Shown one piece after another: positions 10,931 through 46,764 of a stretch of 47,012 nt of DNA (position 1 is its first letter; every line of letters starts with the position of its first letter). The notes under the pieces are model-generated. The model searched no databases. It was not told the origin of the DNA and saw nothing but the letters and a program-made list of their open reading frames with translations. Made by a program: the position numbers and the translations under genes. The stretch is from positions 1 to 47,012 of the IMG/VR virus record IMGVR_UViG_3300006916_000081; one strand, 5' to 3'. The DNA is from a virus.

Positions 10931-11248
10931 ATGGAAAAATCAACTGGTAAATTTGCTCGTTACTTTAAACGGTTATTACAAGTGGAAATGACCACTGGTG
11001 ATGCTGGGGTTGGTAGTACAGGTGGTTTTTCAGGAAAGAATATTAACTCTAGTGATTTCTATGCACCAAATGACGGTCGTAACCTTTTTGGTAAATATTC
11101 CAAGCACAAACCTAAAGTTCAAACAAGATTAGGTAAAAGAAGTAAAAAAATTAAACAAAAATTAAAAAAGACTAAAAAATTATACTCACCTGGTAGGAAG
11201 TCAACAAAGAAATCTAAAAAAGTTTACTTACCAGGTGATAATGTTTGA
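10931..11248 (+). CDS. Small very basic protein, possible virion or internal protein
   Basis: 105 residues. The N-terminal half is Gly/Ser-rich and neutral; residues 60-105 are strongly basic (KRSKKIKQKLKKTKK) with a repeated unit KK(T/S)KK(L/V)Y(S/L)PG near 80-90 and 94-102. The basic tail would bind nucleic acid. A late-type box lies 5 bases before the start, so it should be expressed with virion genes. I do not recognise a family. Confidence 0.65.
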   Translation: MEKSTGKFARYFKRLLQVEMTTGDAGVGSTGGFSGKNINSSDFYAPNDGRNLFGKYSKHKPKVQTRLGKRSKKIKQKLKKTKKLYSPGRKSTKKSKKVYLPGDNV

Positions 11249-12218: not shown

Positions 12219-12596
12219 ATGAGTAAGTTTCTTGATCTTATTGAAGAAAACACCCCAGATCTAGATTTAGATGAAAAGATAGCTGCAAAGAGAGCTGTGC
12301 AGCGTTGCTTAATGGAAAAAGATATTAGGTGTGATGCTGATCAGAAATCTGATAACGTTGTTATACATCTACCAGATGGACGCGCTGTTAATCTAGAGGT
12401 TATCGATTTTGTTGATACAGAAGATAATGAAATGGATGATGTGGCGGAAGCAGAGATCGCAATTGGAGCTGCAGAAAAATTTAAAGCTGCTGCAAATCCG
12501 GAGTCCAAAGGCGCTAAAAAAATGGATAAGAGTATAAGTAACTTAGTTACTGTTGTATCTAACAAAATTAATAAAATTGCCAAAAGTATAAAATAA
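12219..12596 (+). CDS. Small acidic phage protein, possible internal head protein
   Basis: 125 residues. The leader MSKFLDLIEENTPD resembles the T4 capsid-targeting leader MKTYQEFIAEA in length and pattern. The middle is acidic (VDTEDNEMDDVAEAEIAIGAAE) and the C-terminal 35 residues are Lys-rich and helical. It is the first gene of the cassette up to 18038 and has its own late-type box. No enzymatic motif is visible; the head-protein role is inferred from leader and context. Confidence 0.6.
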   Translation: MSKFLDLIEENTPDLDLDEKIAAKRAVQRCLMEKDIRCDADQKSDNVVIHLPDGRAVNLEVIDFVDTEDNEMDDVAEAEIAIGAAEKFKAAANPESKGAKKMDKSISNLVTVVSNKINKIAKSIK

Positions 12597-12597
12597 T

Positions 12598-12915
12598 ATG
12601 AAAACTTTAGATATATTTAAAAAATACGAATCTTTATATAATGAAGATCTTGAGACGTCAGATGCAACCGACACTTCTGAAATACCTACTGATGAGCTCG
12701 AACCTCAAGTAGATGCGATGACATCTGAAGGTGAGAAGTATCTTGTTGATCTTCTGGTTAAAGCTTTCCTACATGCTCCGGACGAGTCAGGCGCTGCCAC
12801 AGCCAAGGAGCTTCAAGGTATGGTTGATGAAGATCCGAAAGGTGTTGCTTCTGCAATCAGTAACTTAGTTGAAATGGGTGATGGTGAGATGAAAGAAACA
12901 CTTGCACAAGCGTAA
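12598..12915 (+). CDS. Small acidic phage protein, function unknown
   Basis: 105 residues, starting 1 base after the previous stop. Leader MKTLDIFKKYESLYNED resembles the leaders of its neighbours. An acidic Thr/Asp-rich stretch follows, then a helical C-terminal half (YLVDLLVKAFLHAPDESG). No Shine-Dalgarno is present. I recognise no family; it may be an internal head or assembly protein. Confidence 0.6.
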   Translation: MKTLDIFKKYESLYNEDLETSDATDTSEIPTDELEPQVDAMTSEGEKYLVDLLVKAFLHAPDESGAATAKELQGMVDEDPKGVASAISNLVEMGDGEMKETLAQA

Positions 12916-12931
12916 GGAACATCTTTATAGT
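12916..12931 (+). promoter_or_regulatory. GGAACA-N4-TATAGT promoter-like element
   Basis: Directly after a TAA stop: GGAACA, 4 bases, TATAGT, then 6 bases to the ATG at 12938. It is the least perfect of four GGAACW-N4-TATAnT elements in the window. Confidence 0.4.
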
Positions 12932-12937
12932 AGTGTT

Positions 12938-14335
12938 ATGAATGATTTAGAGAGTATATATGCAGCTAAAGTGTTAAATGAGAGGCTATCGTTAGACTCA
13001 GTTGATGTTAGCGGCTATAGATTAGAGGATCTCTATAAAGTTGTAAAAATTAACGAGGCTAAAGTTAATATTGAGTTTGCTGATGGTAATGTCCAAACTG
13101 TTGAAATGGATGATACTGAGGCTCGTAAATTAATGCGTCTTCAACAATCAGAAGAATCTCCTGACCTTAAAAAATGGGCTGCATCCGCTGGTTGGGATAC
13201 AGAAGCTGCTCAATTTGCTCTCGAAGGTAGATTAAATTCCATTTACAATGAGTCAATTCAAATGGACAATAAAGGGGTACGTAATTCTTTCTATAAAGAA
13301 GTTAAAACTATTACTTCATTAAAAGATACGAATAAATTAGATACTTTAACAAATGCTTTACAAGAGGGTAATACTAATTTTAAAAAGCATATTGATAAGC
13401 TTGGAGCTAGTAGAGGTTTTAAATTTATAACTAATTCAGACGCTGTAAATAAGGTTGCTTATATTACATTTGAGGAGGGCGCTGTTGGTGTAGGTCCGGG
13501 TGAGGCTGTATTAACTTTATTTTCTGAAGGTAAAAATCCAAATGAGGGTGATATTGCTCTTCCGAATGGTCAGTTAGTTGAGCTTAAGGCAGGAGCCGGT
13601 CGACCAGGTAAAGGCAAGACGCTATCTTTAATTCGTAAATTTAATGACTTTACGAAAGGGACTCAACTTACTGATCCTATTGATGTTAATGCTGCAAATG
13701 CTGTTTTAAACGGTATTGTAAATTTTGACTTTACAAAGTTACGTGCCGCGCAAATGCGGGTAGCCGAGCGTGTTATTGCAAATATTAACAGTAATAAAGA
13801 TATCGAATCTAAAATTAAATCTGTATATAAAGATACCAAGGGTAAAGCATACTTTGATAGTATAAAAGCTAAAGATGGTAAATCTATAAATGAATATTTA
13901 GCAGAATTTCAAGATCAGATTAAGCAGCGTAATGAGAAGGAAGGTGCACTTTCTAATCGTTTTTTTGATTCAGCAGATAAAAATACTTTACTAACAGGGT
14001 TATTAATGTTTGCATCTCAACCTCAAATAGTTAAACCTATTATTGAGAAAGCTCTTAATAGTGTAAGTAACAATCAAGGTGAGGTTGCGAGAGCGATTGC
14101 TGCAGCTATGCAAATCAACGAGTATCATAATGAAGAAAAAGATGATCAAAAATTTACATGGTTTACTCTTTTTAACAAAGACAACTTTAATATGCTTACT
14201 TTTGGACCATTTAGCAGTGATTATGCAGAAAATGCAAATAGAACAGTGCAAGATATGTTAACCAACATTAATGAAATTGATATATCTCCTAATACTGGTG
14301 GTGGACGCGGTGGTTATAACTTAACTCTCAAATAA
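12938..14335 (+). CDS. Large phage protein with PD-(D/E)XK nuclease-like core
   Basis: 465 residues from ATG 12938; a TTG at 12902 would extend it into the previous gene and is unlikely. The segment near 189-217 reads GEAVLTLFSEG, then GDIALPNGQLVELKAG. An early Glu, then D with E-x-K eleven residues later, matches the PD-(D/E)XK nuclease pattern. The remainder is mainly helical. The N-terminus MNDLESIYAAKVLNERL is short, amphipathic and similar in style to neighbouring leaders. A DNA-cutting role is inferred from this motif only. It is followed by the ligase-like gene at 14359. Confidence 0.6.
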   Translation: MNDLESIYAAKVLNERLSLDSVDVSGYRLEDLYKVVKINEAKVNIEFADGNVQTVEMDDTEARKLMRLQQSEESPDLKKWAASAGWDTEAAQFALEGRLNSIYNESIQMDNKGVRNSFYKEVKTITSLKDTNKLDTLTNALQEGNTNFKKHIDKLGASRGFKFITNSDAVNKVAYITFEEGAVGVGPGEAVLTLFSEGKNPNEGDIALPNGQLVELKAGAGRPGKGKTLSLIRKFNDFTKGTQLTDPIDVNAANAVLNGIVNFDFTKLRAAQMRVAERVIANINSNKDIESKIKSVYKDTKGKAYFDSIKAKDGKSINEYLAEFQDQIKQRNEKEGALSNRFFDSADKNTLLTGLLMFASQPQIVKPIIEKALNSVSNNQGEVARAIAAAMQINEYHNEEKDDQKFTWFTLFNKDNFNMLTFGPFSSDYAENANRTVQDMLTNINEIDISPNTGGGRGGYNLTLK

Positions 14336-14351
14336 GGAACTCTAATATAAT
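14336..14351 (+). promoter_or_regulatory. GGAACT-N4-TATAAT promoter-like element
   Basis: Directly after the TAA stop of the previous gene: GGAACT, CTAA, TATAATTAA, with the ATG of the next gene 7 bases after TATAAT. There is no good -35 at 16-17 bp. Confidence 0.5.
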
Positions 14352-14358
14352 TAATAAA

Positions 14359-15576
14359 ATGCGCAGTTTTAAACAATTTCACCTAAATTCACAGCTTTTA
14401 ACTGAGGCTAAAGCTAATACTCACTTAACTCACCTTGAAGAACTGGTTTTGACTAAGGGTGAGAAGGGATATGACGTGGCTCGTACCATGATTAGTAATC
14501 TTCTCTCTAAATTACAAGGTAAATCAAAGAGAAGTGTTAATACTTCGGTGAAGTGGGATGGTGCTCCTGCTATTTTCGCTGGTAAACACCCTGAAACTGG
14601 TAAATTTTTTGTTGGTACTAAGTCTATATTTAATAATGAGCCTAAGATCAACTATACTGATGCTGATGTTGAGATGAATCATGGTCACGCACCAGGGCTT
14701 GCTGATAAACTTAAGAAAGCCCTTAAATATCTTCCAAAATTAGGTATTAAGGACATACTTCAAGGTGATTTCATGTTTGATTCTTCTATGCTTGAGACGG
14801 TTGTACAGGATGGTGTTAAGCATATCGCATTTAAACCTAATACTATTAAGTATGCCGTTGAAGCAGACTCAGATCTTGGTAAAGAAATTGCTAATTCTGT
14901 ATTTGGTATTGTTTTTCATACTGGTTATAGTGATTTAAACTCACCACCTCAATACGGTATAAATGTAAAAGGTCTTAAAAAGGTGCCTGGTGTATGGGTT
15001 GATGATGCTGTATTTACTGATGCCACAGGAACGGTTACTCTTACGAAGGATGAGGCTAAGCAAGTTAGAGATTTAGCAAAGACTGCTGATGGTATCAAAG
15101 TTAAATACAAAGATCTTCCATTAGACTTACTTAACATTTATGCTAACTCGGAGATTCGTGAAGGAAAGTTTCTAGAAGATGCAGAGGGTTCATATAAAGG
15201 CTTTATGAACTGGATGAAGGGTCGAATGGAAAAGGAAATTGCTAAACGTAAGTCTAAAACTGGTAAAGAGCGCATTACAGAAGCATTTAAAAAGAAGCTA
15301 GCTGATATTAAATCACGTCAAAAGGATATTATAAATTTATTTAAAATAAGTAAGCTCTTATCTCAAGCCAAACAAATTTTCGTTAACAAATACAATAATG
15401 CTGTTTACAATACAAAGCACTTTTTAGATAATGGTGATGGTACTCTTACCGCTTCTAACCCCGAAGGTTATGTTGCTGTAGGTAAAGAAGGTGATGCAGT
15501 TAAGCTAGTTGATCGTTTAGAGTTTAGTAGAGCTAACTTTAGTGGAGGTCAAACATCTACCCCAATTACCAGATGA
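14359..15576 (+). CDS. Ligase/nucleotidyltransferase-like protein with KxDG motif
   Basis: 405 residues. Residues 65-68 are KWDG within SVKWDGAPAIFAGKH, the covalent nucleotidyltransferase motif I (KxDG) of ATP-dependent ligases and capping enzymes. VGTKSIFN near 85-92, ILQGDFMFD at 133-141 (motif III-like) and IAFKPNTIKYAV at 156-167 (motif IV-like) follow in the expected order. The N-terminal leader MRSFKQFHLNSQLLTEA ends in L-T-E-A, which fits the T4 prohead protease cleavage rule (I/L)-x-E before A/G/S. It may be a DNA or RNA ligase packaged into the head. The next gene starts inside its stop codon. The fold is inferred from motifs. Confidence 0.65.
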   Translation: MRSFKQFHLNSQLLTEAKANTHLTHLEELVLTKGEKGYDVARTMISNLLSKLQGKSKRSVNTSVKWDGAPAIFAGKHPETGKFFVGTKSIFNNEPKINYTDADVEMNHGHAPGLADKLKKALKYLPKLGIKDILQGDFMFDSSMLETVVQDGVKHIAFKPNTIKYAVEADSDLGKEIANSVFGIVFHTGYSDLNSPPQYGINVKGLKKVPGVWVDDAVFTDATGTVTLTKDEAKQVRDLAKTADGIKVKYKDLPLDLLNIYANSEIREGKFLEDAEGSYKGFMNWMKGRMEKEIAKRKSKTGKERITEAFKKKLADIKSRQKDIINLFKISKLLSQAKQIFVNKYNNAVYNTKHFLDNGDGTLTASNPEGYVAVGKEGDAVKLVDRLEFSRANFSGGQTSTPITR

Positions 15577-16124
15577 AAACGTTTAGAGAATATTACGAAG
15601 ACGGAGAGCACCTAAGAGACAAGGAGAGAATAACACTTATGCCGGGTGGTTACAAACCACCTACAAAAGGTCATTTCAGCGCTTTCAAATATCTTTTAGA
15701 AGATGCAGATCGTGGTATTGTTGTCATTGGTAATAAGGATCGTGACGGAATTACTGCTGAACAATCAAAAGCAATTTGGTATATTTATGCTAAGTATGCA
15801 GGTAAACCGGTTGAGGTTATATTAGCACCTGTTTCCCCTGTAAAATCTGTTTATGATTATGCAGATGAAAATAAAGATGTAGAGATTACAGTCGGTGCTG
15901 GTGATAAAGATGAAGACGTAAAGAGATATGCTTACTTTGAAAAGAATGCTGACAAATATCCGCTTGTGAGTGTAGTAAAAATACCACTTCAAGAGGATGG
16001 TATTTCAGGTACTAAAACAAGAGCTCTTATTGCCAATAATATTAATGAGGCTATTAATTATTTTGTACCAGAAGAGTTATCTGAAACTGATAAAGCTGCT
16101 ATAAAAGCAGTGCTTGAAGCATAA
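15573..16124 (+). CDS. Cytidylyltransferase-like (NMN adenylyltransferase-type) nucleotidyltransferase
   Basis: 183 residues. GGYKPPTKGHFSAF near 26-39 contains the (T/H)xGH nucleotide-binding motif, and ISGTKTRALI near 148-157 is the second signature (ISxTxxR) of the HxGH nucleotidylyltransferase superfamily that includes NadM, NadD and CoaD. It would join NTP to a phosphorylated substrate; NMN is a reasonable guess but not shown. The leader MKTFREYYEDGEHL resembles the T4 capsid-targeting leader. The ATG overlaps the previous stop codon, so translation is probably coupled. Confidence 0.75.
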   Translation: MKTFREYYEDGEHLRDKERITLMPGGYKPPTKGHFSAFKYLLEDADRGIVVIGNKDRDGITAEQSKAIWYIYAKYAGKPVEVILAPVSPVKSVYDYADENKDVEITVGAGDKDEDVKRYAYFEKNADKYPLVSVVKIPLQEDGISGTKTRALIANNINEAINYFVPEELSETDKAAIKAVLEA

Positions 16125-16127
16125 ATA
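16120..16127 (+). promoter_or_regulatory. T4 late-type promoter box
   Basis: CATAAATA, 5 bases, ATG at 16133. It overlaps the stop codon of the previous gene. Confidence 0.7.
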
Positions 16128-16132
16128 TATGC

Positions 16133-16861
16133 ATGAAGTCTAAACTTAATGATGCAGGTTTAATTGCTGAAGCTTATTCACAAATTTCACCGAAGTTAAC
16201 AGCAGAAGAGATTAGAGCAAAACAACTTGAGAAGATTGATACTATCATAGATAGTGCAGTTAATAGTGAAAGTGAGTTGACTGAAGAAGGACTTGGTGCA
16301 CTCGCTGGTGGTATAAGTTCTGCAGTGAGAGGTGCTGGTTCCGCTCTTAGGAAAGTAGCAACAAGTGATACTACTAAAAAGGTCTTACGAGGTGCTGGTA
16401 ATTTAGCAAGAGATGTTGCAGTTGAGACCGGAAAGGTTGCTGCTGAAGTTGGTGGTGAAGGTATTAAAGCTGCTGGTAGAGCGGTAGGATCTCTTGCTGA
16501 TAAGGCTGTTGATGCTGCTGATAAGGGTATTAGCAAGCTTGCTGGTGGTACAACTGAGGATGGTGAGAATATGCCACGTGTAAATCATCATGATGATTCT
16601 GAAATGAAAATGGCGCTCGCTGAGCTTTACAAGATTGAAAAATATGCATTTGCTCTTAGCCTTATGATGAAAGATCTTCCAGCTCTGGAAGGTTGGACAG
16701 CTGCTAAAATTACAAAAGCTGCAGATTATTTAGGTTCAGTTTTTCACAAATTAGATTATGATTTCGCTAGTGGTGAACATGCATCAATGTTTAATGTTGG
16801 TCATGAAGATGTTAAAGAATGTGGTTGTGGAGTAGAAGATAGTGAGTGCGCACATAGTTAA
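16133..16861 (+). CDS. Ala/Gly-rich helical protein, possible internal head protein
   Basis: 242 residues. The leader MKSKLNDAGLIAEAYSQ contains L-I-A-E-A, the residues found at the cleavage site of T4 internal proteins (FIAEA). Residues 55-140 form a long Ala/Gly/Lys amphipathic helix region with repeats of the type AGxxAxxVAxxTGKVAA, reminiscent of LEA or membrane-active proteins. The C-terminus has a Cys/His cluster (ECGCGVEDSECAHS) that could bind a metal. It has its own late-type promoter. No enzyme motif is visible. The head-protein role is inferred. Confidence 0.6.
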   Translation: MKSKLNDAGLIAEAYSQISPKLTAEEIRAKQLEKIDTIIDSAVNSESELTEEGLGALAGGISSAVRGAGSALRKVATSDTTKKVLRGAGNLARDVAVETGKVAAEVGGEGIKAAGRAVGSLADKAVDAADKGISKLAGGTTEDGENMPRVNHHDDSEMKMALAELYKIEKYAFALSLMMKDLPALEGWTAAKITKAADYLGSVFHKLDYDFASGEHASMFNVGHEDVKECGCGVEDSECAHS

Positions 16862-16867
16862 TTATTA

Positions 16868-17314
16868 ATGAAGACTTTCTTACAATATATAGAAGAAAAA
16901 TCTGTTTTAGGACTTATTGAGTTTTTCAATATTGAGGGTATTGGTAAAATACCCGCTAAATTAGACTCTGGTAATGGTGCTTATAATGTTATACATGGTG
17001 AAGATATTCAGGAGCAAGGTGATAAAGTATTTTTTCGCACTGTCAACGGTAAGACACTATTACTTCCCAAAAAAGGAGAAATAACTATTAACGTTGGTGC
17101 TGGTAATATGGAACATAGGCCAGTAGTTGAATTAAATTTCAAAATAGGTGATACTGAATTTAACAATATTCCTTTCTCAATAGGTAATAGAGCCTCAAAT
17201 TTATATAAAATACTGGTAGGTAAAGATTTCATTCAAAAAGATCTTGACGCTCTAATCGATGTTAGTCAGGAAAATATCGCTGATAAAAATATAGAAGTTA
17301 GTATAAATGATTAA
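16868..17314 (+). CDS. Retropepsin-like protease domain protein (RimK-associated Zn_protease family type)
   Basis: 148 residues. IPAKLDSGNGAYNVI near 28-42 contains the DSG active-site motif of pepsin-like folds, and YKILVGKDFI near 116-125 is the hydrophobic-Gly element that closes the active site. This arrangement fits the COG4067/PF05618 family, annotated as ATP-dependent zinc protease but of retropepsin fold. The leader MKTFLQYIEEKSVLGL resembles its neighbours. A single-domain protein of this size would act as a dimer. Substrate unknown. No Shine-Dalgarno is visible. Confidence 0.65.
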   Translation: MKTFLQYIEEKSVLGLIEFFNIEGIGKIPAKLDSGNGAYNVIHGEDIQEQGDKVFFRTVNGKTLLLPKKGEITINVGAGNMEHRPVVELNFKIGDTEFNNIPFSIGNRASNLYKILVGKDFIQKDLDALIDVSQENIADKNIEVSIND

Positions 17315-18038
17315 TTTTAAAACATTTTTTGAAAGTCGTTTTTATAATGACACTCTTAATCAACGATTTTGGAGTGATTCAAAAGAGTTTGATTCTGATG
17401 TTAGAGACAGACTTCTTACTATTGCAATGGATGTAGCTAAAGAAGCAGGTGTTGAGGATTTAGTAGAAGATGTTCAACTTACAGGTTCGCTATCTAATTA
17501 TAATTATACTGATTTTTCTGATTTAGATACTCATATACTTCTAGATTTTAAAGATATTAACGATGATGAAGATTTAGTTAAAAAAGCTTTAGATGGAAAG
17601 CGGTTTGTTTGGAATCTGCGGCACGATATTAATATAGGCGGTCACACTGTTGAAATATATTTTCAAGATATACATGAACCTCATAAAGCTTCCGGTCTGT
17701 ACTCTCTACTTAAAGATGAGTGGATTACCGAGCCTAATTATAAACAACCGGTTGTCGATGAAAGAGATGTCTTATCTAAAGCTGATAAAATAAAAGGTGA
17801 AATATCTGACCTTGAAATGGCTCACCAAACAGCTTCAATAGAAGACCTTGTATTTTTGCAAAAAGCTGCGAATGCTCTTAGACGTAAAATAAGTAAAATG
17901 CGTAAAGATTCACTAGATGCTGATGGTGAATTTGGTATTGGTAACCTCGCATTTAAAGAATTACGTAATTCAGACTTTATTGAGCGTCTGATTGATATAA
18001 CAAATAAGTTATATGATGATCAATTTAGCTCACAGTAA
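17307..18038 (+). CDS. Pol-beta superfamily nucleotidyltransferase
   Basis: 243 residues. LTGSLSNYNYTDFSDLDTHI near 53-72 contains the GS motif and D-x-D of Pol-beta-type nucleotidyltransferases, and GHTVEIYF near 112-119 supplies the third acidic residue. Members add nucleotides to antibiotics, proteins, RNA or small molecules; the target is not evident. The C-terminal half is helical. The leader MINFKTFFESRFYND is of the same type as its neighbours. It overlaps the previous gene by 8 bases and ends 1 base before the convergent tRNA-Thr gene. Confidence 0.75.
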   Translation: MINFKTFFESRFYNDTLNQRFWSDSKEFDSDVRDRLLTIAMDVAKEAGVEDLVEDVQLTGSLSNYNYTDFSDLDTHILLDFKDINDDEDLVKKALDGKRFVWNLRHDINIGGHTVEIYFQDIHEPHKASGLYSLLKDEWITEPNYKQPVVDERDVLSKADKIKGEISDLEMAHQTASIEDLVFLQKAANALRRKISKMRKDSLDADGEFGIGNLAFKELRNSDFIERLIDITNKLYDDQFSSQ

Positions 18039-18201: not shown

Positions 18202-18831
18202 TTACCCCCATGTAGTACCTTCAAACCAACCACCTTTGGTTTTTGTACCAGTATTACCGACCGGTGCTGCTCTAGGATCAGCTACCGGTGTAGGTGATTC
18301 CTCTGTAGCAATAGGGCCATGTACATCTTCTAATTGTAAGGTCTCAGTGCTAGATTGTGTGTCTGTAAATGTTATCGATACATTATTATCATCCCGGTAA
18401 CAAGTAGCAAAATTACTACCATGTTCATTTATTTGTACAGATTTTACACGAACTCTACCACCAGTTGATTCATCTACAAATGTATCTGCTGTCTTAAGTA
18501 CAAATTCTGCAAAACGCTCACAACCTACACCGCCAGGTAATACAACTACTTCAGCGATACCCGCTTCATCCAATTGTTTAATTAGATCTAATTTAGGATC
18601 ATCCTGCGCTACAACTAACTTATGATCAAAAGTATGTTCTAAAGTCTTTTTAAGTTCTTTCAAACCACCAAAATCCATAACCCAGTTACGTTCATCTAAT
18701 TCATTAGCTTCAAATGTAATGTCTGCAGTTAAATTATATCCATGAATATACTGACAGTGACTATGAGTCGATCTCCATTGTCTAAAGGCAGCTGAACCTA
18801 GATCAATTATTTTGTTACTAGTAAATTTCAT
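18202..18831 (-). CDS. queD: QueD-like 6-carboxytetrahydropterin synthase
   Basis: 209 residues; the first 150 match the 6-pyruvoyl-tetrahydropterin synthase fold. Catalytic-type residues are visible: Cys in SHCQYIHGYN near 26, DH in TFDHKLV near 70, and Glu in QINEHG near 134. Two usual zinc ligands differ: the AAHR histidine is AAFR and HGH is HGY. The last 55 residues are a Pro/Thr/Gly-rich extension absent from bacterial QueD. The enzyme makes carboxytetrahydropterin from the FolE product, the second step to 7-deazaguanines. It is divergent from folE2 and followed by two tRNAs. Confidence 0.8.
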   Translation of the reverse strand: MKFTSNKIIDLGSAAFRQWRSTHSHCQYIHGYNLTADITFEANELDERNWVMDFGGLKELKKTLEHTFDHKLVVAQDDPKLDLIKQLDEAGIAEVVVLPGGVGCERFAEFVLKTADTFVDESTGGRVRVKSVQINEHGSNFATCYRDDNNVSITFTDTQSSTETLQLEDVHGPIATEESPTPVADPRAAPVGNTGTKTKGGWFEGTTWG

Positions 18832-18837
18832 ATATAT

Positions 18838-18866
18838 ATAATAACCTATTGTATTGGATAAATCAA
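18838..18866 (-). promoter_or_regulatory. Early (sigma70-type) promoter of queD
   Basis: On the minus strand TTGATT, 17 bp, TATTAT, then 6 bases to the ATG at 18831. Confidence 0.5.
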
Positions 18867-19030
18867 CTATTGTTTAGGTATTTGTTATAAGATTAATACT
18901 ATATACTGATCTCTAGATATCTGAACATTAGTGGTCATCGGCTCTCTACAATCCATTTATTCATCTGCGACCTTGATTGCAAGTGTTTCTAGAAACTTTT
19001 TAAATTTAGTTTAAAATAGGGTTAGATTAG

Positions 19031-19058
19031 TTGATTACAGCACGTGTTATGTTATAAT
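19031..19058 (+). promoter_or_regulatory. Early (sigma70-type) promoter of folE2
   Basis: TTGATT, 16 bp, TATAAT with an extended -10 TG (TGTTATAAT), then 11 bases to the ATG at 19070. Confidence 0.65.
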
Positions 19059-19069
19059 TATATTTGACT

Positions 19070-20119
19070 ATGAGTAAGACAGAAAATAACTCCAACTATG
19101 AATGGCTAGGTGATGACGATGAGCTCACCGGTGAGAAGGATACTATTGCAAAAAGTATTATGGGTAGTGAATGTGCTGAAGGATATGTACCACCCGTACG
19201 CGAGTATGATGATACAGTAGATGCAAATAAGGAGTACATTTCATCATTGCCAGATTTACAGAATGGACCTTCTAGTCTTATTCAAGGCGCGCCTGTCGCT
19301 ATTCAGCAAGTTGGTATTCATAACTTTAAGTTACCTCTTAATTATGAAAAGCGTAATGGTAAGACTATTGAGTTAGAGACTAGTGTTACCGGTAGTGTGA
19401 GTTTAGAGGCTCATAAGAAAGGTATTAATATGTCTCGTATTATGCGTAGTTTCTACGATCATAAAGATGAAACTTTTAGTATTGGTAAAATTAGAGATGT
19501 ACTTACAACATATAAAGAGAATCTTAAGAGCTTTGACTCACGCATTATGCTTAAGATATCTTATCCTATCAAACAAACTAGTTTACGTAGTGGTTTAGAG
19601 GGATATCAGTATTATGATGTTGTTTTAGAAGGAGATCTTACTAAAGATGGTGAGTTTAAGAAGTATCTTCACTTTGATTTTGTATATTCATCAGCTTGTC
19701 CTTGTAGCTTTGAGCTTAGCGAGCATGCCGAAAAGTATCGTAATCGTGCTACAGTACCTCATAGTCAGCGCAGTGTAGCTCGTGTTAGTGTTAGGTTTGA
19801 GGATAAGCTTTGGATTGAAGATCTTCAAGAGCTCTGCTTAGATGCTTTGCAAACTGAAACACAAGTAATGGTTAAACGTGAAGATGAGCAAGCATTTGCT
19901 GAGAAGAATGGAGCCTTCCTTAAGTTTGTTGAGGATGCTGTTCGTCTTCTATATTCACGTTTAGATAAAGACGACCGTATAAAGGATTTTAAGATTGTAG
20001 CTTCTCATAACGAATCGCTTCATAGTCACAATGCTATTTCTGTAATAGTCAAAGGTGTTGAGAACGGCTTCTCTGCTGGAGTTGCACGTGATGTCTTTGA
20101 GTCAACAGGCTTGCGTTAG
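19070..20119 (+). CDS. folE2: GTP cyclohydrolase type IB (FolE2)
   Basis: 349 residues from ATG 19070; the TTG at 19064 overlaps the expected transcription start and was not used. Family signatures: ACPCSFELSEH near 215 (the metal-binding Cys), VPHSQRSVARV near 234, and SHNESLHSHNAISVI near 320 with its Glu and His residues. It converts GTP to dihydroneopterin triphosphate, the first step to folate or 7-deazaguanine. With QueD and QueE present, the 7-deazaguanine route is the likely use. A strong terminator follows. Confidence 0.88.
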   Translation: MSKTENNSNYEWLGDDDELTGEKDTIAKSIMGSECAEGYVPPVREYDDTVDANKEYISSLPDLQNGPSSLIQGAPVAIQQVGIHNFKLPLNYEKRNGKTIELETSVTGSVSLEAHKKGINMSRIMRSFYDHKDETFSIGKIRDVLTTYKENLKSFDSRIMLKISYPIKQTSLRSGLEGYQYYDVVLEGDLTKDGEFKKYLHFDFVYSSACPCSFELSEHAEKYRNRATVPHSQRSVARVSVRFEDKLWIEDLQELCLDALQTETQVMVKREDEQAFAEKNGAFLKFVEDAVRLLYSRLDKDDRIKDFKIVASHNESLHSHNAISVIVKGVENGFSAGVARDVFESTGLR

Positions 20120-20139
20120 AAGGTAATACAATCTTTAAA

Positions 20140-20168
20140 GAGTACCGGTAACCGGTACTCTTTTTTTT
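20140..20168 (+). terminator. Strong intrinsic terminator after folE2
   Basis: GAGTACCGG, loop TAA, CCGGTACTC forms a perfect 9-bp stem at 20140-20160, followed by eight T at 20161-20168. Confidence 0.9.
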
Positions 20169-20175
20169 ATTTAAG

Positions 20176-20203
20176 TTGCAAACAGCATATATTAAAATAT
20201 ACT
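20176..20203 (+). promoter_or_regulatory. Early (sigma70-type) promoter of the thioredoxin gene
   Basis: TTGCAA, 16 bp, TATACT, then 6 bases to the ATG at 20210. It follows immediately after the folE2 terminator. Confidence 0.6.
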
Positions 20204-20209
20204 AACTAT

Positions 20210-20458
20210 ATGAAACAACAATCAGTTATTAAGTTAGCAACAGCACCATGGTGTGGACCGTGTCAAACAGTTAAAGCTATGTTAGCGGCTAAAGGTTTAA
20301 AAGTAGATATTGTTGATATTGATGATTCTCCGGAGTTTGCTGAAAAATATGGTATAAGATCAATACCTACCCTGTTAGTATTCCGGAATGATGAAGTAAA
20401 AGAGCAAATTACCGGTGATCCAGGTAGAATATTAGAGGTAGTCAGGGAAAATCAATAG
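20210..20458 (+). CDS. Thioredoxin-like protein
   Basis: 82 residues, short for a thioredoxin (about 105) but with the complete active site ATAPWCGPCQTVKAM at residues 11-25 and the cis-Pro loop IRSIPTLLVF near 50-59. Size and fold are like phage thioredoxin/glutaredoxin proteins (T4 NrdC, 87 aa), which donate electrons to ribonucleotide reductase. Preceded by its own promoter and followed by a GGAACT element that overlaps its stop codon. Confidence 0.85.
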   Translation: MKQQSVIKLATAPWCGPCQTVKAMLAAKGLKVDIVDIDDSPEFAEKYGIRSIPTLLVFRNDEVKEQITGDPGRILEVVRENQ

Positions 20459-20473
20459 GAACTCCGATATAAT
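20458..20473 (+). promoter_or_regulatory. GGAACT-N4-TATAAT promoter-like element
   Basis: GGAACT begins within the TAG stop of the thioredoxin gene, then CCGA and TATAATTAA. The next ATG (20494) is 20 bases after TATAAT, longer than at the other three copies. Confidence 0.45.
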
Positions 20474-20493
20474 TAAGTGTAACAAAAAATATT

Positions 20494-21312
20494 ATGGGAT
20501 TTATCAATACAATTAGTTCGCTTAATGAAGTACCTCAGTTTGAAGTAGAAAAGGTTCCTGTTTTTGGGAGAGATCAAGTACCTATCCCGGATACATTTTC
20601 ACTTCAACGTACAGATACACGTCAGCATCTTGGAATAGTAGGTAAAAAGTATAGACCTATTCAAATGGAGGAGATGATTGATGTATTAGATAAAGCATCA
20701 CGTCAAGTAGGTGATATTGATCATGTTGGCTATACTTCATCTAGAAATGGTCGAAAGGTACTTATTCAATCTAAATTAGCAGCTAATATTGATGTTGATG
20801 GGGATAAAATTGAGCCATATTTTTATACTGTAATTGATAACACCGGTATGGGATCTAATAAGACTATTCCATCAACTACAAGAATAGCTTGTGACAACGC
20901 ATTACACCTTATTAGTGGGGACGCTGATAGTACTAGTAGGCATTCTTTTTCTTTTGATATGAAAGTAGAAAAAATGTTGCAGAGTATTGTTGGTTCAATA
21001 AAGGCAGCTAAGAATTTTAATTCTACCATGGTCGAGTTAAAGAATTCTGCGTTTACTCGTGATGAAATGGTTAAATTTACGAAAAAATTAGTACCTGTCT
21101 TAGAAGATGAATCTTCACGACGTATATCAAAGCGTGAAAAACTGGTTGAGCTATTTGAAAAGGGTAGAGGTAATGTTGGCGAGACAAAATGGGATGCATT
21201 AAACGCTATTACAGAATACGAAACCCATACTGGTAAAAAAACACCGGAAAAACTGATTAGGAATCTTGTAAATACCTCAATGTCAGGTAAAGCATTGGCT
21301 CTTCTCGCATAA
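20494..21312 (+). CDS. DUF932-like phage/plasmid protein
   Basis: 272 residues. The block TRQHLGIVGKKYRPIQMEEM near 42-61, then DNTGMGSNKTIPSTTRIACDNALHL-type residues near 110-134, matches the DUF932 (TIGR03299) family common in phages and plasmids. Its biochemical function is not established. The C-terminal part is helical and Lys-rich. No Shine-Dalgarno is visible. It lies between the thioredoxin gene and a conserved phage gene. Confidence 0.7.
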   Translation: MGFINTISSLNEVPQFEVEKVPVFGRDQVPIPDTFSLQRTDTRQHLGIVGKKYRPIQMEEMIDVLDKASRQVGDIDHVGYTSSRNGRKVLIQSKLAANIDVDGDKIEPYFYTVIDNTGMGSNKTIPSTTRIACDNALHLISGDADSTSRHSFSFDMKVEKMLQSIVGSIKAAKNFNSTMVELKNSAFTRDEMVKFTKKLVPVLEDESSRRISKREKLVELFEKGRGNVGETKWDALNAITEYETHTGKKTPEKLIRNLVNTSMSGKALALLA

Positions 21313-21333
21313 TAACGTTATTATAATAACATA

Positions 21334-21888
21334 ATGAATATTTTTACTACTAACGAGTGCCCGGTTATTTCTGCTAAAGAAATGTGTGACAAACATGTTG
21401 TTAAGATGATTGTTGAGTATGCTCAGCTAATGTCGACAGCTCACCGGGTGCTTGATGGTAAGGAATATGAAGGTAGGACTCGTCTTAATAGACGTATTAA
21501 GCGCTGGTTACATCCAGATGAGGAAATGGAAAAGATTTTATATAAGGCTTCTCATATTAAACATCCTTCTGGTATTTGGTGCAGGTCTACTACCGGTAAC
21601 TATAAGTGGTTGTATGCTCATTTTATTGCTTCTTGTGAAGAGTATACTCATCGATATGAGAAGACTCATTTGACTTTTACTAAGATGGCAGAGGTATTCA
21701 AGACACCTCCTAAGAATCTTCCTAAAGGTCCGCAGCAAGAGTTTGCAGTAGCTATTGCTGCGGACCAAACATGCAGAAAGGTACCCGGTTTTAATAGTTT
21801 AAAGCCAGTTGATAAATATAAACAATATATTATTAATGATAAGCCATTTGCCGTTTGGACAAACAGACAGCCGCCTAAGTGGTATTAA
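21334..21888 (+). CDS. Conserved phage protein with CDKHVVKM motif
   Basis: 184 residues. The N-terminus reads CDKHVVKMIVEYAQLMSTAH near 18-37, a block I know from marine T4-like phage proteins of unassigned function. It contains several Cys/His (SGIWCRSTTGNYKWLYAHF near 75-93). A TATAAT at 21322 is 6 bases before the ATG but has no -35. The gene overlaps the convergent phoH by 4 bases. I cannot assign a reaction. Confidence 0.65.
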   Translation: MNIFTTNECPVISAKEMCDKHVVKMIVEYAQLMSTAHRVLDGKEYEGRTRLNRRIKRWLHPDEEMEKILYKASHIKHPSGIWCRSTTGNYKWLYAHFIASCEEYTHRYEKTHLTFTKMAEVFKTPPKNLPKGPQQEFAVAIAADQTCRKVPGFNSLKPVDKYKQYIINDKPFAVWTNRQPPKWY

Positions 21889-22607
21889 GCCGCTAGTTTA
21901 TCACAAATAAATCGAAGTATTTTACTACGCACAATTTCATCTACCCCAAACAAATGAGTGTAGATACCTTTGTCGCTACAATCATCTGATGCAAATTTTT
22001 TGAAAACATTAGAAAATCCTGATTGTTTAACGTCAGATTGTTTTGTATCTCCACATACTATGTATTGACTATTACGTCCAAACCGAGTAAGAATAGTTGT
22101 TAGTTCACCTTTTGTTAAATTTTGAGCTTCATCCACAATAACACAAATATTGTTAAAGGTTAATCCACGTACAAAATTAACTGGTATAGCATCAATTAGA
22201 CCTTTTGTTTTTAACATACTACATGTTCCAGGGCCGCAAATTTCAGTCACTTTTTCTATAAGTGGCATCATATATGGTGAAAACTTATCGTCAATTTCAC
22301 CAGGTAAAGAACCTAAACTCTTGTCAGCTGATTCAACAACAGATCTAATATATACAATTTTTTCAAATAAACCTTCCTTTAACATTTCTAAAGCCGCGTA
22401 AACAGCAATATAGGTTTTAGCTGTACCGGCTAGCCCATCAACAAATGACATCTGGGTTGTAGATTCGTGAAGCATATTATAAAACTCACGATGTTTAGGT
22501 TTAAAGTAAAAGGGTTTGCGTAATTTAAAATCCATAAGCCAGTTACTATCAAAAAGATCTTCACCAATTTCATCATGAGAGTTTATTTTTTTGTTTTGTC
22601 TACTCAT
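21885..22607 (-). CDS. phoH: PhoH-like ATPase
   Basis: 240 residues. Walker A GLAGTAKTY at 59-67, Walker B CVIVDEAQN near 155, and the sensor-like YIVCGDTKQSD near 183 identify the PhoH P-loop family. PhoH-like genes are common markers of marine phages. The cellular role is uncertain, with proposals in RNA metabolism and phosphate stress. Transcribed divergently from queE. Confidence 0.92.
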   Translation of the reverse strand: MSRQNKKINSHDEIGEDLFDSNWLMDFKLRKPFYFKPKHREFYNMLHESTTQMSFVDGLAGTAKTYIAVYAALEMLKEGLFEKIVYIRSVVESADKSLGSLPGEIDDKFSPYMMPLIEKVTEICGPGTCSMLKTKGLIDAIPVNFVRGLTFNNICVIVDEAQNLTKGELTTILTRFGRNSQYIVCGDTKQSDVKQSGFSNVFKKFASDDCSDKGIYTHLFGVDEIVRSKILRFICDKLAA

Positions 22608-22676
22608 ACAACTATATTTAGGAAGTATAATAGGGAATGTATAGTTAAATATTTGACTATAGTTTTCATAATTCAG

Positions 22677-22704
22677 TTGAATAATTTAATATCAGTATTA
22701 TAAT
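22677..22704 (+). promoter_or_regulatory. Early (sigma70-type) promoter of queE
   Basis: TTGAAT, 16 bp, TATAAT, then 7 bases to the ATG at 22712. An upstream in-frame ATG at 22703 lies inside the -10 box and is therefore unlikely to be the start. Confidence 0.65.
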
Positions 22705-22711
22705 GTATACG

Positions 22712-23470
22712 ATGGATCTAGATAAACAAACTTTGATACTTTCTGATGATAAGATCTTCTACACTGTTGAAGGGGAAGGTGAGTATGTAGGTCAGCGCTC
22801 TTTATTTATGAGAATGGCCATGTGTAATCTAACCTGTATAGGTTTTGCAAGTGAAGATTCTCCACATGGTTGTGATTCCTTTATATCATGGAGTGTAAAA
22901 AATAAAATGTCTTTTAATGAAATCTTTCAGATGATGGAAGAAAATAACTGGATTGAAAAGCTCGAGAAAGGTACAATCTGGAAACTAACTGGAGGTGAAC
23001 CTCTAATTCAGCAAAAGCAATTACTTAAACTCGTGGATGAGTTTATTTATAGGTATGGTTTTGAACCTAAGATTGATTTTGAAACTAATGCTACTCTTAT
23101 GCCAGATTCAAGGTGGCATGATGAATTTGGTGCTACCTTTACCACTTCACCAAAGCTAACTACAAATGGTGATCCTGAGGAAAAAACTTATAAGCCAGAG
23201 GTGCTTAAGTATCATAAGGAGATTGGTTCAGGCTTTAAGTTTGTTATCAATGACCCAGCAGCTGACATTGAGGAAATTTGGCGTAAGTATGTCGAAGATG
23301 ATGAAGGTATTAATATAAGTAAAGATCGTATATGGTTTATGCCATGTGCTGGTTCCCGGGATGAGCATATTGCTAATGCTGAAGCAGTTGTTGAGTATGC
23401 TAAATCAATGCATGTTCATTTTTCACCTAGACTTCACTTATTAGTATGGGATAAAGCTCTCAAGGTATAG
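22712..23470 (+). CDS. queE: QueE-like 7-carboxy-7-deazaguanine synthase (radical SAM)
   Basis: 252 residues from ATG 22712. FYTVEGEGEYVGQRSLFMRM near 14-33 is the QueE N-terminal signature, and LTGGEPLIQQ near 93 is the radical-SAM GGE motif. The cluster cysteines are CNLTC followed by an 11-residue insertion and CDS, instead of the usual compact Cx3Cx2C. It converts carboxytetrahydropterin to 7-carboxy-7-deazaguanine. With folE2 and queD, three steps from GTP are covered here; queC and a DNA transglycosylase (dpdA) are not in this window. Confidence 0.85.
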   Translation: MDLDKQTLILSDDKIFYTVEGEGEYVGQRSLFMRMAMCNLTCIGFASEDSPHGCDSFISWSVKNKMSFNEIFQMMEENNWIEKLEKGTIWKLTGGEPLIQQKQLLKLVDEFIYRYGFEPKIDFETNATLMPDSRWHDEFGATFTTSPKLTTNGDPEEKTYKPEVLKYHKEIGSGFKFVINDPAADIEEIWRKYVEDDEGINISKDRIWFMPCAGSRDEHIANAEAVVEYAKSMHVHFSPRLHLLVWDKALKV

Positions 23471-24918: not shown

Positions 24919-25755
24919 ATGAGTAAGATTGGTGTAGGTATTATAACCTGTGATAGGGTAAAAATGTTTAATGTTTGCTTTGAATCTCTTAACGATGAAT
25001 GGTACGATGAATTAGTAGTTGTAGATGACGGTAAAGAAGAGCATCCTTTAATGCGCTCCGGAGCAGAATTTATACGTACACCAGGTGGAGTAGGTGTTGG
25101 TAAAGCGAAGAATGCTGCTATACAAAATCTACTGGATAAAGATTGTGATTATATTATTCTTGTTGAAGATGATATGAAATTTACAGGTAATTTGTTTGCA
25201 GAGTATATACATGCTTATAATACAACAGGTATTCATCACTTTATGTTTGCATATCATGGTCCTGCAAACAAAGCTGGTATTAGTTACGGTAAGCCAGTAC
25301 CAAGATTAGTATTCGATTACGGGCCATTTGATGAGTGCCGCATTGCTCTTAACCAGCATTGCGTAGGTGCTGTTACATTTTACACAAGAGAATCTTTAGA
25401 AAAGGTAGGATTATATGATGAAAATTTTACTAATGCATTTGAGCATGTAGATCATTCGTATCAGTTAGCAAAGAATGGTTTTAGCACGCCGTATTGGTGG
25501 TGGGCAGATATTGCTAACAGTTTAGATTTTGTACAAGAGCAGAAGTGTTCAGAAGACTCTTCAGCAATTAGACCACGGTCAGATTGGCAATCAAACATTC
25601 AAGCAGCCGCACACTATTTTATGAGCAAGAATAAAGTATCACCAGTAAAAGTCCCTGATACTCCGCAGCAAAAAGTTGTAGAGATTATTAAACGCTATAG
25701 AAAAATAATTGATGAAAGATCTAAAAGAAAAGCTAACGTTTCTGATAGCCGCTAA
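24919..25755 (+). CDS. Family 2-type (GT-A) glycosyltransferase
   Basis: 278 residues. IGVGIITCDRVKMFNVCFES at the N-terminus, VVVDDGKEE near 36, KAKNAAIQNL near 62 and IILVEDDMKF near 79 are the nucleotide-sugar and metal-binding elements (EDD in the DxD position) of GT-A enzymes. FEHVDHSYQLAKNG near 175 supplies the catalytic ED/EH-type motif. First gene of the carbohydrate cluster. Its last 44 bases overlap the next gene. Confidence 0.85.
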   Translation: MSKIGVGIITCDRVKMFNVCFESLNDEWYDELVVVDDGKEEHPLMRSGAEFIRTPGGVGVGKAKNAAIQNLLDKDCDYIILVEDDMKFTGNLFAEYIHAYNTTGIHHFMFAYHGPANKAGISYGKPVPRLVFDYGPFDECRIALNQHCVGAVTFYTRESLEKVGLYDENFTNAFEHVDHSYQLAKNGFSTPYWWWADIANSLDFVQEQKCSEDSSAIRPRSDWQSNIQAAAHYFMSKNKVSPVKVPDTPQQKVVEIIKRYRKIIDERSKRKANVSDSR

Positions 25756-26488
25756 GGTAGATCATGAAGATCGTGTCCGTAATATTCGAACGACTTTATC
25801 TTATCTACGGCATCACTTTGATGCTGATATTATTATTAGTGAACAGGATACATCAAGTAAGCTACACGATATGTGTAAAGCTTTTAAGTGTCGTCATATC
25901 TATATTGAAACAGATGAGTTCTTTAACAGGCAACGAGGAGTTAACCTTGCAGCAAAAGAGGCAACTACTCCAGTTATTGCTCATTATGATGCCGATATAC
26001 TCTTAAGACCTGAGCAGATTATTGGAGCTACTGAAGCAATTATAAACGGTCAAGCACAACTAGTATACCCGTATGATGGTCATTTTTATGATGTACCAGA
26101 AACATATTTTGATATTATTAATGAAACAAAAGATCTTCGTAATGTAAATTTAGATGATTGTACTTTGTTTAATCCACATTCGGTTGGTGGCGTTGTAATG
26201 TTTGATAGGGAGCATTATTGGAAATGTGGTGGGGCTAATGAACACTTTAAGAGTGTAGGTTATGAAGATAACGAAATAAATACTCGATTTAAAAAATTAG
26301 GTACAAAAATTGCTCGGACGCAATGGCCTCTATGGCATTTAACACATGCTCGGGGTGAAACTTCCTATAATCATAATCCACATATTGAATTTAATAGAGA
26401 CTATTACTTAGAAATTGCGCAAATGACTTCTGATCAATTAAAGAATCACATTAATCAATGGGAATGGCATAAAACTGTAGCGGTATGA
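25712..26488 (+). CDS. Glycosyltransferase, GT2/galactosyltransferase-C type
   Basis: 258 residues from ATG 25712; a TTG immediately before is the alternative. LTFLIAAKVDHEDRVRNI at the N-terminus, the metal-binding HYDADILL near 90, and the C-terminal SVGGVVMFDREHYWKCGG with YEDNEINTRFKKLG near 165-195 match the GT-A fold with a Glyco_transf_7C-like end. It overlaps both neighbours, indicating an operon. Confidence 0.85.
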   Translation: MKDLKEKLTFLIAAKVDHEDRVRNIRTTLSYLRHHFDADIIISEQDTSSKLHDMCKAFKCRHIYIETDEFFNRQRGVNLAAKEATTPVIAHYDADILLRPEQIIGATEAIINGQAQLVYPYDGHFYDVPETYFDIINETKDLRNVNLDDCTLFNPHSVGGVVMFDREHYWKCGGANEHFKSVGYEDNEINTRFKKLGTKIARTQWPLWHLTHARGETSYNHNPHIEFNRDYYLEIAQMTSDQLKNHINQWEWHKTVAV

Positions 26489-28100: not shown

Positions 28101-28124
28101 CTATACTATAATATAAGTTATAAT
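28097..28124 (+). promoter_or_regulatory. Early (sigma70-type) promoter of the fcl-like gene
   Basis: TTGACT, 16 bp, TATAAT, then 8 bases to the ATG at 28133. The -35 overlaps the stop of the previous gene. A second TATAAT at 28107 is too close to the -35 to use it. Confidence 0.7.
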
Positions 28125-28132
28125 ATATGTAG

Positions 28133-29669: not shown

Positions 29670-29670
29670 T
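29644..29670 (+). promoter_or_regulatory. Early (sigma70-type) promoter of the PLP-enzyme gene
   Basis: TTGCAA, 15 bp, TATAAT, then 6 bases to the ATG at 29677. It overlaps the 3' end of thyX. Confidence 0.5.
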
Positions 29671-29676
29671 AAAACT

Positions 29677-30843: not shown

Positions 30844-30844
30844 A

Positions 30845-31834: not shown

Positions 31835-31835
31835 A

Positions 31836-34608: not shown

Positions 34609-34921
34609 TATAAAGGATATGGTAAATGGTTGGGTAGTTGGTAACTTCGACCCTTCTGTGTTAAAGACGGAAAAATTTGAAGTAGGCTATCATAAGTATA
34701 AAAAAGGTGCACCGACGCAAAATCACTACCATAAAAAAAGCACAGAAATTAATATTGTCGTTTCTGGAGATGTTGAAATAAATGGAGAAAGATTTCGCGA
34801 AGGGGAAATATTTGTACTTGAACCATACTCTGTATCAGAGTCGTCTTTTCATAAGAACACCGATTTAATTGTGATTAGAGATGCATCTTATACAGATGAT
34901 AAATATATCATAAATGAATAA
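34595..34921 (+). CDS. Small cupin-domain protein
   Basis: 108 residues. QNHYHKKSTEINIVVSGDVE near 42-61 is cupin motif 1 (HxH...E, G), and GEIFVLEPYSVSESSFHKNT near 70-89 is motif 2 with its His. A single-domain cupin could be an epimerase/isomerase of a sugar or a sensor. It overlaps both neighbours, within the sugar cassette. Confidence 0.78.
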   Translation: MKKYNIKDMVNGWVVGNFDPSVLKTEKFEVGYHKYKKGAPTQNHYHKKSTEINIVVSGDVEINGERFREGEIFVLEPYSVSESSFHKNTDLIVIRDASYTDDKYIINE

Positions 34922-35582: not shown

Positions 35583-35598
35583 TATATAGATATATACT
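35571..35598 (+). promoter_or_regulatory. Early (sigma70-type) promoter of the DUF366-like gene
   Basis: TTGCCT, 16 bp, TATACT, then 9 bases to the ATG at 35608. Confidence 0.5.
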
Positions 35599-45047: not shown

Positions 45048-45713
45048 ATGTCAGTTAAACTAAATCTTGTTTGCGAAAACCCAGACATCGTTGATCAATT
45101 CGAGGTCTTCGAGGAGCAAACCAATAAAGATAGTGCTAAATCTCTTTTTATAAAAGGCCCTTATATGATGGCCGAAGGGGTAAATCGTAATAAACGATTT
45201 TATCCACGAAATGAGCTTGAGCGAGAAGTTGCATCCTATAACGAAAATTTTGTAAAACCAGGTCGGGCAATGGGCGAATTAAACCACCCCTCTTCTGCGG
45301 ATGTTGATCTTGAGAGAGCGTGTCATATGGTAACAGAGCTTACACAAGATGGTGATGTTTTTTATGGTAAATCAAAAGTACTTACAACCCCATGTGGTCA
45401 GATTGTTCGATCCTTAGTTAATGATGGTGTTAAAGTAGGAATGAGCTCTCGCGCTCTTGGTACTTTAGAAGAGAGCAGTGAGTATAATACAGTGCGTAAT
45501 ATGAAACTAGTAGCCATAGATTGTGTTGCAGATCCATCTTATCCTAAAGCATTTGTCAACGGTATATTGGAATCTAAGCAATGGGTTCTTGCCGAAGACG
45601 GTAAATATGAAGAAATTTACGATCAGTTTGAAAAAAGTGTTTCTAAGTTACCACGAAAAGAAGTAGAAAAATATTTGCTTGAACGCATTATGAGCTTTAT
45701 TAACAAAATTTGA
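45048..45713 (+). CDS. 21: Prohead core protease gp21
   Basis: 221 residues (T4 gp21, 212). GPYMMAEGVNRNKRFYPRNE near 38-57, the catalytic His in MGELNHPSSADVD near 77-89, and the Ser in VKVGMSSRALGTLEE near 130-144 mark the herpes-type assemblin fold serine protease. VAIDCVADPSYPKAFV near 157-172 supports it. It matures the prohead core and capsid proteins and cuts after (I/L)-x-E. Such sites occur in the leaders of the 14359 and 16133 genes in this window. Confidence 0.94.
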   Translation: MSVKLNLVCENPDIVDQFEVFEEQTNKDSAKSLFIKGPYMMAEGVNRNKRFYPRNELEREVASYNENFVKPGRAMGELNHPSSADVDLERACHMVTELTQDGDVFYGKSKVLTTPCGQIVRSLVNDGVKVGMSSRALGTLEESSEYNTVRNMKLVAIDCVADPSYPKAFVNGILESKQWVLAEDGKYEEIYDQFEKSVSKLPRKEVEKYLLERIMSFINKI

Positions 45714-45912: not shown

Positions 45913-46764
45913 ATGAATAAAGAATCACTACCAACCGAATTACAAGATGTCCTTACTGAAGATTCAGTAGAGTCAATCGAGGTAGCACTTAAAGAGAAAG
46001 TTGAGCTTTCTGTTGAAGCTGCGCTCGCGAGCCAAGACGAACTTTACGCTGAAAAGCTTGAGACCCTTATTACACAAATTGATAAGGATCATACAACTAA
46101 GATGCAAAGTATTGTTGAAGCTGTTGATAAAAATAATGCTACCAAATTAGGTAATGTTATTAAAAAATATGAAGCAGAGCTTAACGATGGAGCATCTCAA
46201 TTTAAAGAGACTCTCGTTGAATCTATTTCCAACTATCTAGAAGAATATATTGATGAAGCTGTTCCAACAGCAGCTATTGAAGAGGCAACTCGTAACAATA
46301 CGGCTATGACCGTTCTCAATAATCTCCGCTCTACACTTGCTGTTGACTCGTCTCTTATGTCAGAGTCTGTAAAAACTGCAATCGTGGAAGGTAAAACAGA
46401 GATGGATGAGCTCAAAGCAGAAATTGCTGAACTTAAGAAAACTAACGAAACTCTTAATGAGAATTACAATCAGGCTAAGTCTGCTGCGTTCCTTGAGAAT
46501 CGATGCGCTAAGTTTAGTAGCAAAAAATCTGCATATCTTAAGAAAGTTTTATCAGATAAGTCTCCAAGATTTATCGAAGAGAATTTCGAATACACTGCAC
46601 GTCTTTTTGACCGTAAGGAAAAAGAGCAACTTGAAGTTATTCGTGAGGAAGCAATCAGCAATCGCACTGTGAAAGCTGATGCTCCGAAAACAGTTGTTGA
46701 GGAGAAAACTAAACCATCGGTACCATCAAACCCTTATCTTGAAGGGTTGGACTTGATGAAGTAA
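45913..46764 (+). CDS. 22: Prohead core scaffold protein gp22
   Basis: 283 residues (T4 gp22, 269). Acidic, almost entirely alpha-helical and coiled-coil, with many (I/L)-x-E-A/S sites as expected for a scaffold degraded by gp21. The C-terminal third CAKFSSKKSAYLKKVLSDKS near 200 and the final SNPYLEGLDLM match phage gp22 ends. It stands 5 bases after the 67-like gene and directly before the major capsid gene, as in T4. Confidence 0.88.
   Translation: MNKESLPTELQDVLTEDSVESIEVALKEKVELSVEAALASQDELYAEKLETLITQIDKDHTTKMQSIVEAVDKNNATKLGNVIKKYEAELNDGASQFKETLVESISNYLEEYIDEAVPTAAIEEATRNNTAMTVLNNLRSTLAVDSSLMSESVKTAIVEGKTEMDELKAEIAELKKTNETLNENYNQAKSAAFLENRCAKFSSKKSAYLKKVLSDKSPRFIEENFEYTARLFDRKEKEQLEVIREEAISNRTVKADAPKTVVEEKTKPSVPSNPYLEGLDLMK

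Follow-up and report, generated by a model that had tools for sequence, protein, structure and literature searches.

Likely head-targeting leaders on an eight-gene run of an uncultured marine T4-like phage

Described systems and the locus

The closest described systems are the internal proteins IPI, IPII and IPIII and the Alt protein of phage T4 (Mullaney and Black 1996, via PMC9026906), in which unrelated bodies follow an N-terminal leader of 10–19 residues with hydrophobic residues at positions 4 and 7 and a gp21-type cleavage site. In IPIII, residues 4 and 7 serve head targeting, and residues 8 and 10 serve processing (PMC9026906). In SPN3US and related giant phages, a prohead protease likewise strips N-terminal propeptides off head-packed ejection proteins (PMC5694885), although these propeptides mostly exceed 100 residues and are thus far longer than the leaders described here. 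Cyanophage virion proteomes have repeatedly held metabolic enzymes, and their authors were unable to separate packaging from carry-over. For example, a cytidylyltransferase/NMNAT was found in the virions of S-SM1 (PMC3037559), S-SZBM1 (PMC9146016), S-SCSM1 (PMC9602691) and S-CREM2 (PMC10665884). The accessible portions of these four papers name no packaging signal, and a search of the open-licence literature did not turn up any account of capsid-targeting leaders in cyanophages.

The window, i.e., the whole stretch of 47,012 nucleotides analysed here, is a 47-kb fragment record of an uncultured marine T4-like phage; no isolated phage turned up as a near relative in a search at the DNA level. 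The region 41354-46764 carries T4-like markers, namely the portal, the neck proteins, the gp21 protease and a probable gp22. A sequence-only reading of this DNA had described eight consecutive proteins with short leaders at 12219-18038, and this was borne out: the eight ORFs are real, contiguous, all on the + strand and kept in relatives, and two tRNA genes, encoded on the − strand, come next. Two starts had to be revised. The third ORF more likely begins at ATG 12938 (MNDLESIYAAKVLNE) than at TTG 12902, because the former start is common to relatives, and the leader of 16133 is in fact MKSKLNDAGLIAE/A, opening at an ATG (MKSK...) that is also kept in relatives. Both cleavage sites that had been pointed out are present, namely LLTE/A at residues 13-17 of 14359 and LIAE/A at residues 10-14 of 16133. 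The features are as follows, with a slash marking the leader end.

10931..11248, + strand: very basic protein of 105 aa (net charge about +22); its leader-like start is longer
12219..12596, + strand: 125-aa protein, no assigned function; leader MSKFLDLIEE/N (12219-12248); weak phrog_20415 match
12598..12915, + strand: acidic 105-aa protein, no assigned function; leader MKTLDIFKKYESLYNE (12598-12645), ending LVE/A or LIE/A in relatives
12938..14335, + strand: 465-aa protein, PD-(D/E)XK-like motif; weak leader MNDLESIYAAKVLNE (12938-12982)
14359..15576, + strand: DUF6267 protein, ligase-like motifs; IPI-type leader MRSFKQFHLNSQLLTE/A (14359-14406)
15573..16124, + strand: HxGH cytidylyl/NMN-adenylyl-type transferase; leader MKTFREYYED (15573-15602); phrog_395, 3e-6
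16133..16861, + strand: Ala/Gly-rich amphipathic protein of 242 aa; leader MKSKLNDAGLIAE/A (16133-16171)
16868..17314, + strand: RimB/RloA-like retropepsin (KLDSGNGAYN); IPIII-type leader MKTFLQYIEE/K (16868-16897)
17307..18038, + strand: putative Pol-beta-type nucleotidyltransferase (GSLSNYNYTDFSDLDTHI); leader MINFKTFFES (17307-17336); phrog_36119, 5e-39
45048..45713, + strand: gp21-type head maturation protease; phrog_207, 6e-58
45913..46764, + strand: probable gp22 scaffold, by its position after gp21 and its acidic, coiled composition

The leader of 16868 resembles that of T4 IPIII (MKTYQEFIAE/A), and the leader of 14359 (MRSFKQFH...LLTE/A) resembles that of IPI (MKTFKEFTST...TITE/A). However, the T4 internal proteins are mainly small, basic and non-enzymatic, whereas the window proteins are larger, mostly acidic, probable enzymes and encoded in a single eight-gene run. 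Hydrophobic residues at about positions 4 and 7, the positions mapped in T4 IPIII, are present in the cassette leaders, with a shifted form in 16133 and the weakest leader in 12938 (L4, I7, LNE). The (I/L)xE end is clear in 14359 (LLTE/A), 16133 (LIAE/A), 16868 (IEE/K) and 12219 (IEE/N), and takes the form LNE or LYNE in 12938 and 12598; the leaders of 15573 and 17307 have no clear (I/L)xE exactly at residue 10. Upstream of the cassette, 10931 starts with a related but longer leader (FAEHFKDYIAE/D in relatives) and is a probable additional member of the leader-bearing set.

A strict T4-type pattern (aromatic residue 4, hydrophobic residues 7 and 8, E10), which was settled only once leaders had been seen, matched 2 of the 57 window genes against 0.04 in shuffles. 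A position-weight matrix whose training set left out all window sequences and combined T4 IPI-III with leader-bearing virion proteins from four cyanophages placed 16868, 15573, 12598, 16133, 17307, 14359 and 12219, in this order, at ranks 1–7 of 57; the remaining cassette gene, taken from TTG 12902, ranked 36 of 57 (Mann-Whitney p = 6e-6 for all eight). The cyanophage training leaders were picked as T4-like among proteins detected by mass spectrometry, so that this matrix is non-circular for the window and constitutes no independent test of those cyanophages. With a T4-only matrix, the cassette genes held ranks 1, 2, 3, 5, 8, 9, 12 and 18, and the order was similar with a cyanophage-only matrix. 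In T4 itself (1-150 kb), the strict motif matched only IPII, IPIII and gp61.1. The last of these (L174:18966-19130, − strand), annotated as hypothetical, has a near-perfect capsid-targeting leader, MKTFKEFIKE/DMVAGDSGG, and is possibly an unrecognised T4 internal protein; the window protein 10931 resembles it around EDM..GD.G.

Probable head packaging and the virion proteomes of related phages

The window encodes its own gp21-type protease (45048), which is expected from its sequence to be the enzyme that cuts the leaders. The leaders would be expected to dock on gp22, for which the candidate at 45913 gave no family match in the profile search. The window record stops short of gp23; read from the sequences of relatives and other phages, the gp23 propeptide ends are C[IL]EE/ in relatives of the window, FLSE/A in Methylophilales phage Melnitz-3, FLAE/A in S-SCSM1 and LLTE/A in S-CREM2, and the leader ends share their (I/L)xE form.

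It is likely that the cassette proteins are targeted to the phage head. We also regard it as probable that the products of the block, mostly enzymes, are packaged in the head, with leaders acting as the T4 capsid-targeting sequence does, and that these proteins are then injected. The hydrophobic residues at about positions 4 and 7 of the leader would dock the fresh protein on the gp22 core of the prohead, gp21 would then cut after (L/I)xE and free the body within the head, and the freed body would pass into the next host along with the DNA. The cargo could act there at once, ahead of phage gene expression, on nucleotides or NAD, nucleic acid ends, host proteins or ribosomes. For the window phage we infer core docking, cleavage and injection by analogy with T4; as related phages with this kind of leader have such enzymes in their purified particles, the phage probably injects a ready-made enzyme set with its DNA.

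Homologues of the HxGH protein 15573 are present in the four published virion proteomes. In S-SM1, the sole strict leader among 211 genes, MKKFSAFLNE/A, belongs to one of them, the T4-GC190 cytidylyltransferase SSM1_190, which was detected in purified virions (PMC3037559). The virion cytidylyltransferase/NMNAT starts with MRFRQFIIE/A in S-SZBM1 and with MKSFLQFLKE/A in S-SCSM1. These proteins are HxGH-family transferases with a leader, as in the window, and in S-SM1 and S-SZBM1 their genes also adjoin DUF6267, although there the DUF6267 neighbour is leaderless, unlike in the window. The leaderless S-SZBM1 DUF6267 (_141) is not among the virion proteins given in the accessible part of PMC9146016. 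The S-SM1 gene after the virion cytidylyltransferase (L081:49421-50000 plus L082:1-842), annotated as a cytidyltransferase, encodes an amphipathic protein rich in Ala and Lys; it resembles window 16133 and occupies the equivalent position.

The S-CREM2 virion list comprises 52 proteins (Table 3 of PMC10665884). There are six strict matches in 217 S-CREM2 genes, the position-4 class having been enlarged with L after the window and S-SM1 counts and ahead of this test, and five of the six are virion proteins (Fisher p = 0.003): the SAM hydrolase (L086:3837-5081, a virion protein by published mass spectrometry), gp13, an APH-like kinase, gp136 and the cytidylyltransferase. The Cas9-like virion protein (L086:7704-10313) carries LRFASFMAE/A near residues 17-26. 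A looser leader pattern, with which the S-CREM2 enrichment was gone (p = 0.13), was dropped, and the strict form and the matrix were used instead. In S-SCSM1, ORF30 (L264:44215-44535) has the strict leader MKTFKQFMSE/S, yet is absent from the virion protein list; it is either a missed small protein or a false positive.

These proteomes bear on two other explanations of the leaders. The first, which we consider unlikely, is that they form a scaffold-binding tag and that the proteins work in the prohead, in assembly or DNA packaging, and are never injected. The T4 core proteins gp67, gp68 and gp21 act in the head and the same motif would target them; moreover, the small proteins 12219, 12598 and 16133 gave no enzyme signature in profile searches. 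However, leader-bearing enzymes persist in the mature virions of other phages, and a cargo of SAM hydrolase, kinase and Cas9-like protein fits action on the host better than action in the head. The second explanation, that the motif has another role, for instance as a membrane helix or a helix binding a shared partner in the infected cell, and that virion detection reflects carry-over of abundant proteins, is less probable still. Short amphipathic helices are generic, and the S-CREM2 and S-SCSM1 authors themselves allow that abundant proteins carry over into virion preparations (PMC10665884, PMC9602691), but the motif positions coincide with those mapped in T4 IPIII (PMC9026906), (L/I)xE equals the gp23 propeptide end of each phage, and motif-bearing S-CREM2 proteins are enriched among virion proteins compared with other genes.

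Leaders in related phages

Alignment of the leaders across related phages, proposed along with the original reading, showed that they are conserved: F4, Y/F7 and (L/I)xE/A are kept though bodies diverge or differ. F4 is invariant in relatives of 12219, 15573, 16868 and 17307. Counted on distinct rows only, many loci being closely related, the leader of 12219 has a mean identity of 79% compared with 37% for the body (12 distinct sequences; F4 and L7 invariant), and the corresponding values are 62% and 49% for 12598 and 93% and 60% for 16133, where the body diverges and the leader stays. The opposite pattern was found for 14359, with a body better conserved than its leader. In IMG/VR relatives, this DUF6267 leader varies freely save for F4, Y/F7 and an end of LLTE/A, LINE/A or LIEE, and LLTE/A is still there in a branch with another N-terminus (L038-L052 in part). 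It is an add-on, since the Pfam domain begins at residue 20.

A second lineage, around Melnitz-3, has a similar run of leader-bearing genes, with MQGFKTFLSE/A on an exonuclease-like protein, MINFSKYITE/D on DUF6267, MKKFSELTSELIE/R on a basic protein and MKKFSEIIEA on the cytidylyltransferase. Among 80 loci of this lineage, the DUF6267 leaders follow M.[NS]F..[FY][LI].E and those of the cytidylyltransferase MKKFSEI.EA; the commonest DUF6267 starts among those listed are all leader-bearing. The DUF6267 protein of Stenotrophomonas phage DLP6 begins with MMKFTQFLAE/S. Those of S-SM1, Syn1 and S-SZBM1 are leaderless, and the tag is therefore optional for that family. That the similar starts arose by descent, through duplication or 5' end reuse, and are functionless is very improbable: MKTFREYYED and MKTFLQYIEE are alike inside one genome, but leaders outconserve bodies in 12219, 12598 and 16133, and other phages carry them on different protein families.

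The idea of a head-packed toolkit for repair or counter-defence is well supported as far as head targeting is concerned: the leaders are conserved, the phage has a gp21 of its own, the gp23 propeptide ends match, and virion mass spectrometry covers leader-bearing proteins of four related phages. Its purpose can only be suggested.

Candidate enzyme bodies and possible roles

The five enzyme bodies named in the sequence-only reading fared unequally. Its HxGH transferase and retropepsin were recovered by profile matches, which are weak and fall under curated cut-offs where these exist; the Pol-beta protein combines its motif with a weak profile match, and the KxDG and PD-(D/E)XK assignments come from motifs. 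In 15573, HxGH occurs as GYKPPTKGH, accompanied by ISGTKTR, the phrog_395 match (3e-6) and a weak TIGR00125 match. For 16868, matches to NCBIfam NF052264 (RloA/RimB; 3e-8, with 33.6 bits where the cut-off is 210), PDB 9g58 (1.6e-4) and PF05618 (2e-4), together with DSG, support a retropepsin-like, RimB/RloA-like assignment by sequence. The RimB/RloA retropepsin-like bacterial peptidases (PMC11957791, PMC12239564) share this family and its D-S-G motif; in contrast to them, 16868 scores under the family cut-offs and has a head leader. In 17307, G60-S61 and D72-x-D74 (GS...DxD) are invariant, and PF01909 matched weakly in three of six members (best E = 0.0028 among relatives).

The DUF6267 domain of 14359 (PF19782, E = 5e-93) starts at residue 20. 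Invariant K65-D67-G68 (KxDG), E369-G370-x-V372 (EGxV) and K382 (VK) correspond to ligase-like motifs I, IV and V, and EGYVAV...GxxxK matches motif IV-V of T4 Rnl1, at an hhalign E of 0.017 and a probability of only 2.7%; hhalign gave nothing against T4 RnlB. A Foldseek search with the 14359 model (pLDDT 69) found no PDB match at E<=0.001, and searches of PDB sequences found no convincing match for DUF6267, 15573 or 17307. In 12938, the PD-(D/E)XK-like residues E189, D205 and E215-x-K217 are invariant in seven sequences; its model, with the motif region below 50 pLDDT, had no PDB match in Foldseek.

As a guess, 15573 would serve NAD or nucleotide chemistry, and 14359 and 17307 end joining or nucleotidyl transfer. 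The retropepsin 16868 suggests editing of the host ribosome or host proteins besides repair and counter-defence. Our guess is host protein editing, perhaps of the polyglutamylated ribosomal protein RpsF, on which RimB acts according to the accessible part of PMC11957791. In Melnitz-3, a RimK-like ATP-grasp protein (L076:82-1131) has the leader-like start MTQKFSQFITEE; it and the leader-bearing RimB-like peptidase of the window are opposite partners of one ribosome-modification pair.

We lean slightly towards the wider reading that a modular head-import tag of T4 type occurs widely among marine T4-like phages on changing enzyme sets, comprising an NMNAT-like transferase, KxDG protein, Pol-beta transferase, RimB-like peptidase, RimK-like ATP-grasp, SAM hydrolase, kinase and Cas9-like nuclease, so that the injected toolkit of the first minute could be read from sequence. 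A T4-type leader on the enzymes found in cyanophage virions provides a candidate mechanism together with a test at the sequence level, by which injected effectors could be predicted in uncultured marine phages. Counter-defence or host takeover at time zero (e.g., NAD, SAM or ribosome modification) becomes directly testable.

Beyond the cassette, PTPS/QueD-like, FolE2-type and radical-SAM-like (Fer4_12) genes at 18202-23470 point to synthesis of 7-deazaguanine, which might serve to modify DNA. A long gene run at 24919-37840, between the replication and head genes, includes glycosyltransferases and a GDP-mannose dehydratase.
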